64,000 nt of DNA, from positions 62,001 through 126,000 of the forward strand of contig NZ_JAMSLS010000003.1 of NCBI RefSeq assembly GCF_023806465.1, in the 5' to 3' direction. This DNA is from Thermomicrobium sp. CFH 73360 (GTDB lineage Bacteria > Chloroflexota > Chloroflexia > Thermomicrobiales > Thermomicrobiaceae). The position numbers were made by a program, and so were the translations under genes. This document shows, piece after piece, positions 7,666 to 18,476 of the stretch; positions within the stretch are counted from its first letter, which is position 1, and each line of letters begins with the position of its first letter. The notes beneath the pieces were generated by a model. It was not told where the DNA came from, did no database searches, and saw only the letters and a program-made list of their open reading frames with translations.

Positions 7666-8913
7666 ATGATGTCCCGGGAGACAGTGGTGCTGTACCAGCG
7701 TGACCGCGGCTATGCCTGGGTGATTGTTGGCACGCTCGCGCTGACGGAGACGGTTTCTTGGGGCGTGCTCTACTACGGATTTCCTGTCTTCCTTCTACCC
7801 ATGGAGCGCGAACTCGGGGAGTCGCGTGCCAGTTTTACCGGTGCATTCTCTCTCGCCCTGCTCCTCTCTGGGCTGGCCGCACCGCTGGTTGGTCGCATAC
7901 TCGACCGTGCTGGCCCGCGCTGGCCGATGACGCTCGGCTCGCTTCTTGCCACACTGCTCGTTCTTGCTTGGTCGCGTATTCAGGCACTACCTGCGTTCTA
8001 CGCGCTCTGGGCCGGTCTTGGACTTGCCATGGCACTCGTCCTTTACGAGCCGGCCTTTGCCACGCTCGCGAAGTGGTTCGAGCACCGTCGGCGGTTGGCA
8101 ATCACGGTTCTCACGCTTGTTGGTGGACTTGCCTCTGTCATCTTTACTCCGTTCAACACCTGGCTCGTCAGCCTCCTCGGCTGGCGTGCTGCGTTGGTCG
8201 CCCTCGCTGGATTGTTGTTCGTTGCCACAGCTCTGCCGCATGCGCTGCTGCTTCGTGCACCACCTGATCACCGTCCTGTCGGCCGGGAAACGCCGGTTTC
8301 CAATGTTCGCGCAGTGCTCCGCACCCCCACATTTTGGGCACTGAGCACGGCGTTGACACTCGCCGCGCTGGTGACGGTTGCTGTGAACGTGCATCTTCTC
8401 CCGTACCTTCAGGAACGCGGCTTCACGCCTGCCTTTGCTGCGACTGCAACCGGTCTGGTCGGCCTGATGCAAATTCCAGGGCGCTTACTCGTCGCACCGC
8501 TCGGTCGCTGGCTGTCTCACCGGACGTTGACGACCGCAGTCTTCCTCGTTCAAGGTGGTGCCTTGCTTCTCTTGCTCCTTCCCAATGGCAGGGAGGCTGT
8601 CGTCCTTGGGTTTGTCGTAGCGTTCGGGATGGCCAACGGGATGATTACGATCTTGCGGGCCGCACGTCCCGCCGAACTCTTTGGTAGTACCTCCTATGGT
8701 GTCATCGCTGGCACGATGACGCTCCCCATGACGTTGGCGCGTGCAGCGGCGCCCCTCGGTGTCGGCACACTCTATACGGTTTTTGGGCACTATGAACCGG
8801 TCTGGTGGGGCCTTGTCCTCGTCGGATGTATCTCGGCACTGGCGGCAGCGGTGGCCGAGTCCACTGCCGGGCGCACGCTCTCGCCCGCACTGCATTCATC
8901 CGAGCCGGAGTAG
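7666..8913 (+). CDS. Major facilitator superfamily transporter
   Basis: About 415 residues with twelve predicted membrane segments in two halves. The MFS motif between helices 2 and 3 is present as GRILDRAGPRWPM (about residues 85-97). A poorly charged central loop with RAPPDHRPVGRE (about 200-211) separates the two halves. The general pattern resembles the monocarboxylate/oxalate-formate antiporter branch, but no substrate can be named. The start is uncertain: the frame is open from a TTG at 7645, and tandem ATGs occur at 7666 and 7669; none has a clear ribosome-binding site. The 3' end overlaps the convergent ABC permease gene by 18 bases. Confidence 0.82.
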   Translation: MMSRETVVLYQRDRGYAWVIVGTLALTETVSWGVLYYGFPVFLLPMERELGESRASFTGAFSLALLLSGLAAPLVGRILDRAGPRWPMTLGSLLATLLVLAWSRIQALPAFYALWAGLGLAMALVLYEPAFATLAKWFEHRRRLAITVLTLVGGLASVIFTPFNTWLVSLLGWRAALVALAGLLFVATALPHALLLRAPPDHRPVGRETPVSNVRAVLRTPTFWALSTALTLAALVTVAVNVHLLPYLQERGFTPAFAATATGLVGLMQIPGRLLVAPLGRWLSHRTLTTAVFLVQGGALLLLLLPNGREAVVLGFVVAFGMANGMITILRAARPAELFGSTSYGVIAGTMTLPMTLARAAAPLGVGTLYTVFGHYEPVWWGLVLVGCISALAAAVAESTAGRTLSPALHSSEPE

Positions 8914-9702
8914 TGCTTCTCGCTGGAAGAGACGGCGACCAGCGCGCAAAATGCCAAAAGCCGCTGCCCAGACGACCACACAGCCGAGTAGTGCGAGGCG
9001 CCAGTCGATCAGGAAGAGCCCGCTTGCCTGTGCCACCATGACGCCGATAAGCGGCATTGCCAGTAACCCGCTTAGCTGCATGACTTCCTGGAAACCACGG
9101 ACTCGAGCGGAAATGAGCACAACGGCACCGAGCCCTAGGAGAGCGATGCCGGGCATCCCAAGCCCGACCAAGAGCATCCACGGCGGGCTCGGTAAGAGCG
9201 GAGGACCGACGCCAGTCACCGCGATTCCGACCACCGCGCTGACGAGCGAGCCGAGCCACCCGATCACGACGGCGGGGAGCACGGCAGCCAATACCTTCCC
9301 GAGGAAGAGTTCTTCATCGCGGATCGGGGTCACCAACAGTGCCTCCAGCGTCCGCCGCTCCCGTTCTCCAGCGAGACTGTCGGCGGCGATCGCCGTTGCG
9401 ACCGCGAGGGGAACCAACAAGATGAGCGGTGCGAACTGGTAGCTTATGAGCACTACCGCAATTTGCTGCCCCGGTTCCAGCCGCTCGAGCTGTGCTCGGT
9501 CGGCAGCAGGGAGGGCGCGAATCAGTGGTTCGAGTTCGCTGTCTGGTACCTCGCCGAGGAACCGTCCCAAGAGACCGAAACCAACCGGCATCGCCAGGAA
9601 GAAGACGAGCGGCAGGACGATCAGCGGCACGAGCACTGGCCGGCTTCGGCGCACCGCGAGGAGATCCTTGCGCACGATCGCCCGAACACGCTGCCAGTGC
9701 AC
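8896..9702 (-). CDS. ABC-2 type transporter permease
   Basis: A 268-residue membrane protein. One hydrophobic segment follows the N-terminal RKDLLAVRRSRPVL motif (about 11-24), then comes an extracytoplasmic stretch (about 45-90) and five C-terminal membrane segments. ERERRTLEALLVTPIRDEE (about 115-133) is the characteristic cytoplasmic coupling segment of ABC-2 permeases of the NatB/DrrB kind. It starts 3 bases after the stop of the ATPase gene and must form the exporter with it. The exported substrate (lipid, drug or ion) cannot be assigned. Confidence 0.88.
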   Translation of the reverse strand: MHWQRVRAIVRKDLLAVRRSRPVLVPLIVLPLVFFLAMPVGFGLLGRFLGEVPDSELEPLIRALPAADRAQLERLEPGQQIAVVLISYQFAPLILLVPLAVATAIAADSLAGERERRTLEALLVTPIRDEELFLGKVLAAVLPAVVIGWLGSLVSAVVGIAVTGVGPPLLPSPPWMLLVGLGMPGIALLGLGAVVLISARVRGFQEVMQLSGLLAMPLIGVMVAQASGLFLIDWRLALLGCVVVWAAAFGILRAGRRLFQREALLRLG

Positions 9703-9705
9703 GTC

Positions 9706-10653
9706 TCACCTCCGTTCTGTTCGTTGGTGCAATGCGAGGTACACGTCCTCCAACGACGGTGTACGGAGTTCCACCCCGTACACCGCTATCCCGGCCCCGA
9801 CAAGTGTGGCGACCACGTCGGGCACTGCGCGCTTCGCCAGCTGCTCCACAAGGATCCTGCCGGGCTCCGGCTTTGCCTGCGCGCGCATGCCGCGACGAGC
9901 GAGGACGTCGAGTGCGCTGTTGACCTGTTCTGGTTCCACCTCAATGGTCACCCGTGCTGGGACACCAAGTGCCGCGGCAAGTTCTCGCGGTGGCCCCTCC
10001 ACTAGGACTCGGCCACGCTCCAGAATCACCACCCGGTCGCACAAACGCTCGGCTTCGTCAAGGTTGTGCGTTGCCAGGAGAATTGTCCGCCCCTCGCGTC
10101 GCCGCTCGGCGATCAGCTCCCGGACGTGGTGTGCTGCCACCGGATCGAGCGCCGCAGTTGGCTCGTCCAGGAGCAAGAGTTCTGGGTTGTGGAGAAGACA
10201 GCGGGCCAGCGCAAGACGCTGGCGCATCCCAGCGCTGTAGGTCGCCACACGGCGTTCAGCCACCTCGGCCAGCCCAAACTGCTCCAGTAATGCTGCGATG
10301 CGCTGGGCCTGGACTACCCGCGGGACGTCGTAGAGATCGGCGAAGACCTGTAAGAGTTCCCGTGCCGTCAGGCGCTCGTCGAGCCCCGGAGATTCACCAA
10401 CGACACCGGTCCGTTGGCGGATCTGCTCGCCGTCGACCGTTGGTTCAAGTCCGAAGACGCGCACTGTTCCACCGTGCGGCGTGAGCAGACCGAGTACGAG
10501 ACGGATTGTGGTCGTCTTCCCTGCCCCGTTATGGCCGAGCAGACCAACGATCTCGCCGGCAGCGACCTGGAAGCTGATCCCGGCGAGTGCGACTGTCTGA
10601 CCAAACCGCCGCTCCAGCCGGTCGACTTGGATAATAGGTCCGTCGAACACCAC
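9706..10653 (-). CDS. ABC-2 type transporter ATP-binding protein
   Basis: About 315 residues: an ABC ATPase domain (about 1-220) plus the C-terminal DUF4162-like extension typical of NatA/DrrA exporters. Visible motifs are Walker A GHNGAGKTTTI, signature YSAGMRQRLALA, Walker B LLLLDEPTAALDP and switch histidine LLATHNLDEAE. I chose the GTG at 10653 because CGGGGAG lies about 7 bases upstream; an ATG at 10707 has no such site and would add 18 residues unlike the family. It forms a two-gene unit with the permease downstream. Confidence 0.88.
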   Translation of the reverse strand: MVFDGPIIQVDRLERRFGQTVALAGISFQVAAGEIVGLLGHNGAGKTTTIRLVLGLLTPHGGTVRVFGLEPTVDGEQIRQRTGVVGESPGLDERLTARELLQVFADLYDVPRVVQAQRIAALLEQFGLAEVAERRVATYSAGMRQRLALARCLLHNPELLLLDEPTAALDPVAAHHVRELIAERRREGRTILLATHNLDEAERLCDRVVILERGRVLVEGPPRELAAALGVPARVTIEVEPEQVNSALDVLARRGMRAQAKPEPGRILVEQLAKRAVPDVVATLVGAGIAVYGVELRTPSLEDVYLALHQRTERR

Positions 10654-11493
10654 GTGGCTAACTCCCCGAAACACCACAGCACCGAGTCGGGTGTGGCCCT
10701 CGTGCATTGGTCAGCGTAGCTAGGACCCCGGCCGCGTTGTGAACGGGCTGTGCTGTCCGCTTCCTGATGTGCCGCTTGCCGAGCGCGCCGCACAGTCAGC
10801 GCTAACACGACGTTGGAATTCTTCAGTCGACCGTCACGCCTCTGCAAGCGGAGAGCAGTGCGTGACAGCACGCCGGGTGGCTGTACACTGTCGTCCTACG
10901 ACGCTGAGTGTGGCAAGAGAATCGCGAGAAGAGAGGGACTATCGGGAGCATCTCTGCGCGCGGGTCGCGGCACGCTCGGACCCTGCCGGCGATGTCTCAT
11001 TCTCGAGTATGTGGGGAACATCCCCGTGTGCTCCTCAGCGCGAGTTCCTTCTCAGATGCTCGGCCGAGCACGAGGCGGCTCTCCGGAAGAGGCTGCAGTT
11101 GAGTCGAAGGCGGCTGGGACATACCGAGACAGGCGCAAAGCCACCGACTGCTGACGTGCGGGTTCACGTAGCGCTTGTACCACAGCCTGCCTGCCTTGGA
11201 GACTCGCGATCCACCTTACGCTCTTGGGATGGGGCAGTGGCAGCGGCTCGAGTGCGTGCAGCGGCGAGGTCAGGGCTGTACAGCCGTTGCGCAGGAGTAT
11301 TGGCCCCCGTGCGTGTGCTGACAAGGGGACTGGAGTGTCCCGGACCGTCGTTGGAGCGCTCGTTCACCCTGGCGTGATACTGGGCCATGGGCAAGCGGTG
11401 GCCCCGTCGCGAACCACACGGGTAGGAGCAGCCTCGCAGCATGTCAAGCGTATCGAACAAGCGAAATGTGAGTTGTGCCGGCGTTTAGTTGTG
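10654..11493. other. Long divergent intergenic region, no gene recognised
   Basis: About 840 bases between the exporter operon (minus) and the ECF importer (plus). Open frames of up to 212 codons exist but are mutually overlapping, rich in Arg, Cys and Ser as expected of shadow translation, and have no motif. The right end leads into the riboswitch-like leader at 11494. Confidence 0.5.
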
Positions 11494-11578: not shown

Positions 11579-11622
11579 CACGTTCCGCGCACGCTTGCCA
11601 TATTGGAGAGAGGAGGATGGTC

Positions 11623-12183
11623 ATGCAGATTGGACGACCCAAGCAGTCACAGCGGTTCGCGTTCACTCCCCTCACCATCGCCCTCAGCGGCGTGATGATC
11701 GCTGTTGTCTTCGTGGCCACCCGTTTCATCCAGGTGCCGATCCCAAGCGGTTATATTCACCTCGGCGATATTGCCATCTATACGGGTGCTTTCCTGTTCG
11801 GCCCCATCGTCGGGGGCATCAGCGGAGCGCTTGGGCCGATGCTGGCTGACCTCACCAGTGGCTATGGTCAGTACGCTCCGGCGACGCTTGTGCTCCATGG
11901 GCTCCAGGGTCTCCTCGCCGGTTGGATCGGATGGCGCGCCGGGATCTGGCGCATGATCCTCGCTGTGACCATTGGCGGTCTTCTCATTGTCGTCGGGTAT
12001 TTCTTGTACGAAGTCGCTGTGCTGCGCATCGGTCTCGCCACCGCGACGGCCAACGTTCCCTTCAATCTTTGGCAGGTCGTGTCGGGTGCGGTCGGTGGTG
12101 TCGCGTTGACGATCCTCTTTCGGGAGAGCTATGCCGCGCTCCTCGCTCGTCTGCAGCCGCAACGGTTCCGCCGTGAGGCCTGA
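11623..12183 (+). CDS. ECF transporter S component (substrate-binding membrane subunit, HmpT/PF07155-like)
   Basis: A 186-residue protein with five to six membrane segments. The sequence IHLGDIAIYTGAFLFGP (about 43-59), then a glycine-rich turn and LADLTSGYGQYAPATLVLHG (about 76-95), matches the ECF-type S-component pattern in which GD and the SGY..APAT helix line the vitamin pocket. ATG 11623 is chosen because AGGAGG ends 6 bases before it; ATG 11617 abuts the same site. The energising module follows after 67 bases, so this is a dedicated importer. With the TPP-like leader, hydroxymethylpyrimidine or thiamine is the most likely substrate, but riboflavin-type S components share this family. 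Confidence 0.82.
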   Translation: MQIGRPKQSQRFAFTPLTIALSGVMIAVVFVATRFIQVPIPSGYIHLGDIAIYTGAFLFGPIVGGISGALGPMLADLTSGYGQYAPATLVLHGLQGLLAGWIGWRAGIWRMILAVTIGGLLIVVGYFLYEVAVLRIGLATATANVPFNLWQVVSGAVGGVALTILFRESYAALLARLQPQRFRREA

Positions 12184-12250: not shown

Positions 12251-14971
12251 GTGGATGACCGTTCAATGGATCCGGACATCCAACCGGTAGAAGCCTCGAC
12301 CTCGGATGCCAGGCCGAGCATGGCGACACGCGTCGTCGTTCGGGCTGAGCGGTTCACTTACCGCTATCCTGCTCTTGTCCCTGGTGAACAACCACAGACG
12401 GCGCTTGACGATCTCACCTTCGCCATTCCCGCGCGACAAGTCGTTGGCCTGGTCGGTGCGAGTGGGAGTGGTCTGACCACGCTTTGCCTCGCCCTTGCTG
12501 GCTTGGTTCCCTATGAGACTGGCGGGACTGTGCGCGGATGGCTCGTTGTTGCTGGTCAGGAGACGACCAGCGTTCCACCGGCTGAGCTCGCCCGCTCGGT
12601 CGGCATCGTCTTCGAGGATCCGGAGGCCAATCTCATTGGGCTTTCTGTGGCGGACGAGGTTGCTTTTGCGCTCGAGCTCCGCGGGCTCCCACCGAGGGAA
12701 GTCGCGCAGCGGGTCGCTTGGGCGCTCGAGACTGTTGGTCTCGCGCACGACGCTGATCGGCCGTCCGGGCAACTTTCTGGCGGGCAGAAGCAGCGTCTCG
12801 CCCTGGCTGTTGCGCTCGCAGCCCAGCCCGAACTGCTCGTACTCGATCAACCAACCAGCCAGCTGGATCCACGCGGAAAGCGCGAACTTCTCCAGGCGCT
12901 CGCTGCGCTGGCAGCTGATCCCGTTCGCTCGCTGACGATCGTTTTGGCTGAGCGTGACAGTGACCTCCTGCTCCCGCTCGTCGAGCGCGTGCTCGGCCTC
13001 GCCAATGGTCGGCTTGTCCTTGATGCTCCACCCGCGGAAGCCTTCACCGATCCCGAACGTCTCCGCACACTCGGTACCGCTGAGCCCCAGCTGGCGGCAC
13101 TAACCCGTCATCTTCGGACGCGCGGCCTGTCGACTGCGCCGTGCCTCTTCCGCCATGTCAGCGAAGCCGCGGCGTACTTGCGCACGGCGTTTGAGCGAGA
13201 GAGACAGGACTCGGGTAGACCGAGTCCTCTCGACCTGTCACAGAGTTCATCGGCCCAGCTGTGCGGTGCTGCCGGCCAAATGTTCGGCCCTGATCTCGCT
13301 CCTGAGCCAGTCCTTCGGATCGAGCGCCTCTCTTATCACTATCCGAACGGGCCGCTGGTCTTACGTGATGTAGAGCTCACCCTTGCCCCCGGCGAGGTGG
13401 TCGCTGTCGTCGGACCGAACGGCTCAGGAAAGACGACGCTTGCCCGGCAGGTGATCGGGGCTCTCCATCCCACTGCTGGTCGGGTCCTCGTTACCGGCCA
13501 GGACACACGGACGAAGACGATCGCCCAGCTCGCTGCGTTCGTCGGTTACGTCGCGCAGAATCCGGACCACCAACTCGTGCAGGCGACCCCCTTGGCCGAA
13601 GTCGCTTTCGGGCTTCGGCAACTCGGGCTCCCGGCCGAGGAGGTCGAGCAGCGAGCCCGCGAAACGCTCGCGCGCTTTGGTCTTCTGCCCTTTGCCGAGC
13701 GACAGCTCCCTCTCCTGAGTCGCGGGCAACGCCAGTTGGTTGCCCTCGCGGCAGCGGTGGCGCGCGAGCCCGCGCTGCTCGTCCTCGACGAACCGACCAG
13801 TGCTCTCGATCAAGCTGGCCGTGAGCTCCTCGTGCATCTCCTCGCCGAGCGTGCTGCCACTGGTGCGAGCACGCTGCTCATTAGCCACGATCTCCGGTTG
13901 GTTGCACGGTGTGCGCACCGCGTTGTTCTGCTCAGCGAGGGAATCGTGCGGGCCGAAGGACCGCCACATGTTGTTCTTGGTGATGCTGCGCTTTTGGAGG
14001 CGAATGGATTTGTCCCACTTCCGGTCACCGAACTGAGTTGTGCGTTGGGGTTAGCGCCAGCGCTCGAGCCTGAAGAACTCATCGCGGCGCTTTTTGTGCC
14101 ATCCGCTGTGGTCGCTCCTGAGCCAACCCGAGGCTCTCGCTCGCCGACAGCGCCATCCATGCACGCCGAACCGGCCTTGTCGCCACGCCAACACGCGCTG
14201 CCTGCACTGGCACGCCTTGATCCCCGGGTCAAGCTCGCGCTCGTCCTCGTCGCTGCGCTACCGCTGCTCCTCTGGCAGAATCCGCTTGTCCTCGTGGTCG
14301 TGGTCATCCTGTTGCACGTTCTCCTCTGGCGTGGTGGCGGTTTCGACCGCGCGCGACTCACAGCGGTTTGGCGAGCGCTCGCGCCACTCCTCTTACTCGT
14401 GCTCCTGCTCCGTCCCCTCTTCGATCGTGCTGGTGAGCCGGTCCTTGTCTCTTACGGTCCGTTCACGCTTACCCTGCCAAGCATCCTTGGCGCGGTGGGT
14501 ACGGCGCTCCGACTGGTCGCACTGGCGCTGCTCGCACTAGCCTGGGTCGCAACGACAAGTGAGCGAGCGTTGGTGCAAGGTCTTGTGCGGCTGGGGCTTC
14601 CGGCGAGCGTGGGACTTGCGCTCACTATTGGCCTTCGTTTCATTCCGATCTTTGCTCAGACGTTCTCCACAGCATCCGAAGCGCTGCAGACCCGCGGCTG
14701 GGTCATCCCGGAACGGGGGATGGCACGTCTGCGCGCCCTGCTGCCTGTTCTGTCCGCTGCTCTTGCGGCGACATTGCGTCAAGCGCAACAGCTGAGCTGG
14801 GTGCTCACGGTACGTGGCGTGGGCGTGCGCGGGCACCGCCCGCGTTTTGGGGAGCTCCGCCTCAGCCGACTTGACTGGATCGTACTCGTGGCTGGCCTTG
14901 CTGCAGAGTTCCTGCTCCTTGCGGCCACGCTCACCGGATTCGGTCGCTCTCCGCTGTGGCCGGTGGGCTGA
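12251..14971 (+). CDS. ECF transporter energising module: fused ATPase-ATPase-EcfT protein with one degenerate ATPase
   Basis: A 906-residue fusion of the three usual ECF subunits. NBD1 (about 27-260) has an intact signature LSGGQKQR (175-182), but Walker A reads GASGSGLTT with Leu75 instead of Lys. The Q-loop is FEDPEAN (Glu122), the catalytic Glu is replaced in VLDQPTSQLDP (Gln200) and the switch His is replaced in LAERD (Arg235). NBD2 (about 355-600) has canonical Walker A GPNGSGKTT, Q-loop YVAQNPDHQ, Walker B LVLDEPTSALD and switch LLISHD, but its signature is altered to LSRGQ. The C-terminal part (about 650-906) is EcfT, with membrane helices and the coupling motifs QTRGW and TVRGVG. Pairing rules give one dead and one live ATP site. 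The start is uncertain: GTG 12251, ATG 12266 and ATG 12320 are all possible. Confidence 0.9.
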   Translation: MDDRSMDPDIQPVEASTSDARPSMATRVVVRAERFTYRYPALVPGEQPQTALDDLTFAIPARQVVGLVGASGSGLTTLCLALAGLVPYETGGTVRGWLVVAGQETTSVPPAELARSVGIVFEDPEANLIGLSVADEVAFALELRGLPPREVAQRVAWALETVGLAHDADRPSGQLSGGQKQRLALAVALAAQPELLVLDQPTSQLDPRGKRELLQALAALAADPVRSLTIVLAERDSDLLLPLVERVLGLANGRLVLDAPPAEAFTDPERLRTLGTAEPQLAALTRHLRTRGLSTAPCLFRHVSEAAAYLRTAFERERQDSGRPSPLDLSQSSSAQLCGAAGQMFGPDLAPEPVLRIERLSYHYPNGPLVLRDVELTLAPGEVVAVVGPNGSGKTTLARQVIGALHPTAGRVLVTGQDTRTKTIAQLAAFVGYVAQNPDHQLVQATPLAEVAFGLRQLGLPAEEVEQRARETLARFGLLPFAERQLPLLSRGQRQLVALAAAVAREPALLVLDEPTSALDQAGRELLVHLLAERAATGASTLLISHDLRLVARCAHRVVLLSEGIVRAEGPPHVVLGDAALLEANGFVPLPVTELSCALGLAPALEPEELIAALFVPSAVVAPEPTRGSRSPTAPSMHAEPALSPRQHALPALARLDPRVKLALVLVAALPLLLWQNPLVLVVVVILLHVLLWRGGGFDRARLTAVWRALAPLLLLVLLLRPLFDRAGEPVLVSYGPFTLTLPSILGAVGTALRLVALALLALAWVATTSERALVQGLVRLGLPASVGLALTIGLRFIPIFAQTFSTASEALQTRGWVIPERGMARLRALLPVLSAALAATLRQAQQLSWVLTVRGVGVRGHRPRFGELRLSRLDWIVLVAGLAAEFLLLAATLTGFGRSPLWPVG

Positions 14972-17606: not shown

Positions 17607-18476
17607 ATGAGTTGGCCACAGTTTGTGACCGTTACACTGAACGGTTTGACGCTCGCGGCGCTGTACTTCATCGTTGCTATCGGCTTCACCCTGATCTTCG
17701 GAGTGCTCCGCGTGGTCAACCTTGCCCATGGATCGCTCTACCTGTTTGGTGGCTACCTCGGCTGGAGCGTTGCCGATCGGACGGGGAGCTGGGTGCTGGG
17801 CGCTGTTGCTGCTCTGTTTGTCACAGCTCTTGCTGGACTGTTGCTGCAACTGGGTCTACTTCGACGGATCCATGGCCAGGAGCTCCGCGAAGCGCTCGTG
17901 ACCATCGGCGTCTCGATCGTTGCCGCCGATCTCATGCTGGCACGTTGGGGCGGCTTCACCTATGACTTTTCGCCGCCGGAAGTGATTACTGGCGGTCTCC
18001 GTATCCCGCTGCTCGACATCGGCTATCCCCGCTATCGCCTCTTCGTGCTTGCCTTCGCCATAGCGCTCGGACTCATACTCTGGTTTGTCCTCGCGCGCAC
18101 TCGTCTTGGAATCACGGTGCGTGCTGCCATCGATGACCGCGACATGGTCGCGGCAGTCGGCATCGACGTGCAGCGCCTCTTCGCGCTCATGTTCGCAGTT
18201 GGTGCCGGACTCGCGGGGCTCGCCGGGGTGATCGGCGGTTCAGTACTCTCGATCTCCTCAGGGGAAGACGCTCGGTATCTCTTAGCCTCGCTCATTGTGG
18301 TCATTGTCGGCGGGATGGGTAGTCTGCCGGGCACGGCGGTCGCGGCAGTGCTCGTTGCGCTGGTCGAGCAGTACAGCCTCGCACTCTTTCCCACCTACGC
18401 AGCGATCGTGAGCTTTCTGCTGATGGTCGTGGTGCTCGCCCTTCGTCCGCAAGGTCTATTCGGGAGGCCAGCGTGA
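17607..18476 (+). CDS. livH: Branched-chain amino acid-type ABC transporter permease (LivH)
   Basis: A 289-residue membrane protein with about eight helices, beginning with the family pattern TLNGLTLAALYFIVAIGFTL, followed by FGVLRVVNLAHGSLYLFGGY (about 33-52). The cytoplasmic EAA-like loop is LARTRLGITVRAAIDDRDMVAAVGID (about 156-181), and GGMGSLPGTAVAAVLVALVEQ lies near the C-terminus. This is one half of the HAAT-family channel; such systems import branched-chain amino acids but also amides, urea and aromatic acids. GGAGATGCG precedes the ATG. The stop overlaps the next gene's GTG (GTGA), so the two halves are translationally coupled. Confidence 0.9.
   Translation: MSWPQFVTVTLNGLTLAALYFIVAIGFTLIFGVLRVVNLAHGSLYLFGGYLGWSVADRTGSWVLGAVAALFVTALAGLLLQLGLLRRIHGQELREALVTIGVSIVAADLMLARWGGFTYDFSPPEVITGGLRIPLLDIGYPRYRLFVLAFAIALGLILWFVLARTRLGITVRAAIDDRDMVAAVGIDVQRLFALMFAVGAGLAGLAGVIGGSVLSISSGEDARYLLASLIVVIVGGMGSLPGTAVAAVLVALVEQYSLALFPTYAAIVSFLLMVVVLALRPQGLFGRPA

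Follow-up and report, generated by a model that had tools for sequence, protein, structure and literature searches.

The window analysed here is a 64,000-nucleotide stretch of a contig of the heat-loving bacterium Thermomicrobium sp. CFH 73360. Positions 12251–14971 of its forward strand contain a reading frame free of internal stop codons, which encodes a single-chain ECF module of 906 residues. Pfam domains are arranged along the chain as two ABC_tran domains followed by CbiQ at residues 654–856, and we refer to this order as A-A-T. The first ATPase domain, NBD1, comprises residues 28–290 (12332–13120) and matches PF00005 in two stretches. The second, NBD2, comprises residues 351–600 (13301–14050), with the PF00005 match at residues 371–517. 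Both domains are of the ECF type according to the NCBIfam models ECF_ATPase_1 and ECF_ATPase_2, each of which matches the chain in two stretches above its cut-off (TIGR04520, 358 bits against 315; TIGR04521, 339 bits against 330). The coupling component T (CbiQ/EcfT) is present as the C-terminal domain, residues 650–906 (14198–14968; PF02361, E-value 1.3e-24, 87.5 bits against a cut-off of 25). In the AF2 model of the chain (mean pLDDT 85.7, pTM 0.82), two long helices of the T domain, residues 785–813 and 824–854, are followed by the X-Arg-X motifs TRG and VRG. Directly upstream, on the same strand, lies the gene of an HmpT-like ECF S protein (11617–12183; PF07155, E-value 1.4e-31, 110 bits), which starts with the ATG at 11617 or at 11623. 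Together, the S protein and the A-A-T chain are predicted to form an ECF importer that has an S gene of its own. Beside this operon, the opposite strand encodes the ATPase and permease of an ABC-2 type exporter (8896–10707), and permease genes of a branched-chain amino acid/urea-type ABC importer are located downstream on the forward strand, from position 17607 onwards.

The best solved relative of the S protein is the S chain of PDB entry 4hzu (E-value 1.8e-14; 6e-20 with a profile), which we take to be HmpT of an ECF complex. The kinship to HmpT hints weakly at a vitamin of the pyridoxine/HMP type as the substrate. No substrate riboswitch was detected in the window, at 16 related loci, or in a relaxed search upstream of the S gene, and inspection of the neighbouring genes in relatives yielded no substrate clue. 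Orthologues of the S gene occur across the order, and they adjoin A genes in genera g1, g5 and g6 and in genomes of the same order. The host genome (G000) encodes three CbiQ-type T components, each located near its own ATPases, but it also contains other S-like proteins away from the module, at C1:370602 and C12:192983. The S component may well be dedicated to this module alone, as would be expected of a group I ECF transporter. Two further ECF modules are present in the host genome, at C12:236797–239276 and C23:317408–319883; one of them has a fused double ATPase with the signatures LSGGE and LSSGE, and the other has a single ATPase.

The two ATPase domains differ in their nucleotide motifs, which were identified by motif reading and by an alignment of NBD1 with NBD2, where the motif residues of each pair fall in one column. 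The Walker A motif of NBD1, GASGSGLTT (from residue 69; 12455–12481), has Leu75 (codon 12473–12475) in place of the lysine. The Q-loop VFEDP contains Glu122 (12614–12616) instead of glutamine, the Walker B motif LLVLDQP has Gln200 (12848–12850) in place of the catalytic glutamate, and the histidine of the switch motif LAERD is replaced by Arg235 (12953–12955). NBD1 retains the P-loop glycines, the Walker A threonine pair, the A-loop aromatic residue, Walker B Asp199, and a perfect LSGGQ signature at residue 175 (12773–12787). The nucleotide motifs of NBD2 are canonical, with the Walker A motif GPNGSGKTT from residue 388 (Lys394; 13412–13438), the Q-loop VAQNP, the Walker B motif LLVLDEP, and the switch LISHD. 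The signature of NBD2 is LSRGQ at residue 489 (13715–13729); the position of its Arg491 is usually occupied by a basic residue in aligned orthologues from the same order. These residues are exactly those named in the first-pass annotation, and the motif states bear out its view that one of the two composite sites is degenerate and the other consensus. It had also proposed head-to-tail pairing, with the NBD1 Walker A motif facing LSRGQ and the NBD2 Walker A motif facing LSGGQ. This pairing agrees with the AF2 model, in which residues 27–591 fold into one NBD1–NBD2 sandwich of the usual kind, and the NBD pair overlays as a single unit on ATP-bound fused DppD (483 residues, rmsd 3.2 Å, Z 31.4). 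The chain has the characteristics of an asymmetric ABC transporter with a degenerate site: one NBD lacks the catalytic glutamate, the signature of its partner is altered, the other site is consensus, and the degeneracy is kept among orthologues.

All four NBD1 substitutions are conserved together in the A-A-T fusions of all six Thermomicrobium genomes that carry the gene, at protein identities of 66–93%, and so are the lysine, glutamine, glutamate and histidine of NBD2. The gene is split over two contigs in one of the six genomes, and its reading frame is intact in every one. Leu75 is encoded by CTG, CTA, TTG or CTC, Gln200 by CAA or CAG, and Arg235 by CGT, CGG or CGC. In the closer genome pairs, dN/dS is 0.15–0.19 for NBD1, 0.12–0.15 for NBD2, 0.10–0.16 for T, and about 1 for the linker between NBD1 and NBD2. 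The interdomain linkers (13121–13300, residues 291–350; 14051–14197, residues 601–649) are weakly constrained, with dN/dS mostly 0.3–1.1, in contrast to the strong constraint on the domains. Since the codons vary while the residues are fixed, and dN/dS of NBD1 is close to that of NBD2, selection holds NBD1 as tightly as NBD2, and Leu75 itself is maintained. Fixation in six genomes, the four leucine codons, and the equal dN/dS indicate that the substitutions are selected. The assertion of the first-pass annotation that the losses are not random therefore holds, and none of the A-A-T homologues in the six genomes has a canonical NBD1 of the kind expected for a strain mutation or sequence error. 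Both of these origins are ruled out by the six genomes and the synonymous codon turnover, and a pseudogene is ruled out by dN/dS and the codon turnover.

Among the relatives surveyed, A-A-T fusions are confined to Thermomicrobium. Families f3 and f5 and genus g6 encode A, A′ and T individually, and genera g4 and g5 have a fused pair of ATPases with a separate T gene. The NBD2 signature in the orthologues of the order is never LSGGQ but LGRG, LSRS, LNRS, LRRG or LGRA, and the LSRGQ of Thermomicrobium is among the most consensus-like. The switch histidine of NBD1 is lost in all of the order's aligned orthologues, where Arg, Gln, Ser, Asn or Gly replaces it. Within the order, the Walker A lysine and the Q-loop glutamine are lost only in Thermomicrobium, and so is the catalytic glutamate, except for one change of Glu to Asp in family f3. 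The alignments indicate a staged decay, in which the signature and the switch histidine changed first, and the lysine, glutamine and glutamate were lost later, in the ancestor of the genus. Because the former changes are order-wide and the latter are restricted to the genus, the decay of the two halves of the site was not simultaneous. The first-pass annotation had invoked complementary decay of both halves of one site. Both halves are indeed altered, but not in one event, as the altered signature and histidine loss throughout the order's orthologues and the near-consensus state of LSRGQ argue against a single step.

The polarity of this asymmetry was followed in a survey of 171 different ECF ATPase pairs with both members complete. 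Of these, 140 are fused proteins and 31 are the products of neighbouring genes, and nearly all come from Chloroflexota, Bacillota and Actinomycetota. Two queries from the branch of the Thermomicrobium protein served as seeds, and the proportions therefore describe that branch and not ECF transporters at large. The site composed of NBD1 motifs and the NBD2 signature deviates from the consensus in 150 of the 171 pairs, and the opposite site deviates in three (L185, L189 and L251). The lysine, glutamine, glutamate and histidine of NBD2 are intact in every pair. Parsimony on a tree inferred after removal of the motif columns placed approximately ten changes of the histidine, nine of the glutamine, six of the glutamate, and one of the lysine on the NBD1 side and none on the NBD2 side; the halves of L251 were swapped in this run, which affects only the counts for the two signatures. 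The catalytic glutamate was lost only where the switch histidine was also lost (six events). As a control, the EcfA1/EcfA2 pairs of group II transporters were canonical at every position in 30 of 30 cases. Therefore, the earlier statement that both sites work in typical ECF pairs is correct for group II but does not extend to the protein's own branch. Judging from the motifs, one-sided asymmetry is not peculiar to the Thermomicrobium protein and is widespread in a neglected ECF branch.

Several surveyed pairs display other forms of degeneracy. Deep decay of the same site, with the Walker A lysine retained, occurred independently in L105 from another class of Chloroflexota (Gln to Asp, Glu to Ala, His to Pro), in L241 (Glu to Asn, His to Asp), and in L250 (Glu to Gln, His to Asp, with LSRGQ). 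In the unfused adjacent A/A′ pairs L212–L231 from Bacillota, A has the signature LSGGQ and often a change of the switch His to Gln and a Q-loop Asp or Glu, and A′ has LSKGQ or LSRGQ with the remaining motifs canonical. The fused proteins L020, L022–L024 and L026–L028 from family f9 have Ser or Gly in place of the Q-loop glutamine (VALVGSNAF) and the NBD2 signature LPPARRR, which represents another degenerate pattern. The NBD2 signature of L162–L191 from Actinomycetota is mostly LSAG, LSEG or LSSG in otherwise canonical pairs. Among the fusions, only L251 has its polarity reversed, with LSAGQ in the first half and LSGGE in the second. Its interpretation as a permuted fusion was rejected, because its halves score as EcfA1 and then EcfA2, and it is counted as a genuine exception. 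The profile scores of NBD1 from the Thermomicrobium chain are ambiguous in this respect (158.6 and 160.7 bits), and neither half was therefore assigned to EcfA1 or EcfA2.

The module combines features of several known systems. Group II modules, such as ECF-FolT2 of Lactobacillus delbrueckii (EcfA/EcfA′/T), share the A-A′-T design, a CbiQ-type T with X-Arg-X motifs, and a membrane S component; they differ in having two canonical ATP sites (30 of 30 sampled pairs), a requirement for both catalytic glutamates (PMC10368641), separate genes, and S components used in common. In Bacillus subtilis, YkoEDC resembles the module in its fused double ATPase and has a dedicated S component (PMC5037267), as the module may. 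However, T is a separate gene in YkoEDC and other ECF systems with fused ATPases. The one-sided asymmetry extends to the surveyed relatives whose ATPases are fused, but among these fusions only the Thermomicrobium protein lacks the Walker A lysine. NBD1 of the yeast transporter Pdr5 lacks the Walker A lysine, the catalytic glutamate and the switch histidine; Glu244 replaces the Q-loop glutamine, the NBD2 signature is altered, and the NBD2 site is live (PMC7756269, PMC8421411). Pdr5 provides a precedent for a one-live-site mechanism (PMC7756269, PMC6533308). However, it is a eukaryotic exporter of the fungal PDR type with unrelated membrane domains, and the PDR layout NBD1-TMD1-NBD2-TMD2 differs from the order NBD-NBD-CbiQ; the resemblance is convergence. 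RbsA and NupO are bacterial importers with two NBDs per chain, of which one site lacks the Walker A lysine and has a deviating signature, and the study describing them set ECF transporters aside (PMC11466899). They too offer a precedent for the mechanism, but they belong to another importer type and have lost the lysine in the second NBD. The RbsA-type layout, with a separate permease and no CbiQ, is not matched by the Thermomicrobium chain, which contains CbiQ and adjoins an S gene. CFTR, TAP, MRP1 and heterodimeric bacterial exporters also combine one degenerate and one consensus site (PMC7756269). They differ in being exporters or a channel. None of them is known to have lost the Walker A lysine from its degenerate site. 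The loss of this lysine makes Pdr5 and the RbsA-type importers closer analogues than CFTR and TAP, with which the module had initially been compared; that comparison captures the degenerate/consensus division but does not identify the nearest counterparts.

Based on the motif states, their fixation under selection, the one-sided polarity across relatives, and the predicted structure, the chain is probably the complete motor of a micronutrient ECF importer that runs on one hydrolytic site, while the other site is structural or allosteric. The hydrolytic site would consist of the Walker A motif, Q-loop, catalytic glutamate and switch histidine of NBD2, closed by the LSGGQ of NBD1. The degenerate site, site 1, formed by the nucleotide motifs of NBD1 and the LSRGQ of NBD2, would not hydrolyse ATP and may serve as a structural or allosteric hinge that holds the NBD pair together; LSRGQ taken alone, however, departs only mildly from the consensus. 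The T coupling helices, held by a pair of NBDs that are not equivalent, would be driven by ATP binding and hydrolysis at the NBD2 site, and one ATP would be hydrolysed per cycle at that site. Both catalytic glutamates are required in group II transporters (PMC10368641), which speaks against such a motor, and we know of no experimental precedent for a one-site ECF motor. In group II transporters, the T helices CH2 and CH3 are anchored in EcfA and EcfA′ through X-Arg-X motifs and are pushed by NBD closure (PMC10368641). The T domain of the Thermomicrobium chain retains two such motifs, and because a single T is combined with two unlike NBDs, the NBDs may plausibly divide the labour between them.

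The one-site motor can be envisaged in two versions, which differ in the state of site 1. Site 1 may bind ATP stably without hydrolysing it and act as an ATP-filled clamp, similar to proposals for CFTR, MRP1 and TAP. We consider this version plausible but short of probable. The P-loop glycines, threonine pair and A-loop aromatic residue preserved in NBD1 favour it, and site 1 of Pdr5, with Cys in place of the lysine, is still described as nucleotide-binding (PMC8421411). However, all four of the lysine, glutamine, glutamate and histidine are replaced in NBD1, and the Walker A lysine was lost in none of the 101 other fused pairs of our first survey, which places the Thermomicrobium protein beyond the usual clamp stage. 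In the second version, which we regard as rather unlikely, site 1 is empty and closed by the protein itself, with Leu75 in the lysine pocket and a salt bridge between Glu122 and Arg491. The selection on Leu75 itself is consistent with this arrangement. Moreover, an acidic Q-loop residue is accompanied by a basic NBD2 signature in 16 of 19 pairs, compared with 24 of the 152 other pairs (counted per pair), an association that allows for ancestry only through the parsimony count. That count places five of the eight independent gains of the Q-loop acid together with a basic signature, but three without one.

The remaining explanations depart from the one-site motor or from its pairing of the domains. 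Slow ATP hydrolysis in site 1 by other residues is improbable; the retained Walker B Asp199 and P-loop glycines favour it, but neither the Walker A lysine nor the catalytic glutamate is present. Two chains could alternatively pair NBD2 with NBD2 in two symmetric LSRGQ sites, leaving NBD1 as a regulatory appendage, which the intact nucleotide motifs of NBD2 and the closeness of LSRGQ to the consensus would permit. This arrangement is highly improbable, as NBD1 has kept a perfect LSGGQ, the AF2 model joins NBD1 to NBD2 in the usual sandwich, and the unfused A and A′ genes of relatives are adjacent within one operon. The chance that NBD1 is decaying without function, through pseudogenisation or relaxed constraint, is negligible despite the four missing catalytic residues, because purifying selection on NBD1 equals that on NBD2, the frame is intact in every genome, and LSGGQ is kept.

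ABC exporters with degenerate sites are well known (PMC7756269), as are the degenerate sites of the fused-NBD importers RbsA and NupO (PMC11466899); searches of the open-licence literature yielded no report of such a site for any ECF transporter. The Thermomicrobium protein is an extreme case within a wider polar class of ECF ATPase pairs that has apparently gone unremarked. We only tentatively, and with more doubt than confidence, extend this to a branch with one hydrolytic site, of which the Thermomicrobium protein would be the end point, a single-chain, single-ATP motor with a nucleotide-free second site closed by Leu75 and the Glu122–Arg491 pair. On that reading, two hydrolysis-competent sites would not be intrinsic to ECF transport. 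The one-site motor matters because, in the well-studied branch, either single E-to-Q variant of the group II transporter ECF-FolT2 is devoid of ATPase activity and transport (PMC10368641). Evolution made the same Glu-to-Gln change in one half of the Thermomicrobium pair, added the loss of the lysine, and kept both under selection. With the wider survey, the finding raises the questions, for the entire branch, of how many ATP molecules an ECF cycle uses and whether the NBDs that hold CH2 and CH3 have different jobs, for which the operon series from separate A, A′ and T through fused A-A to fused A-A-T provides natural intermediates.
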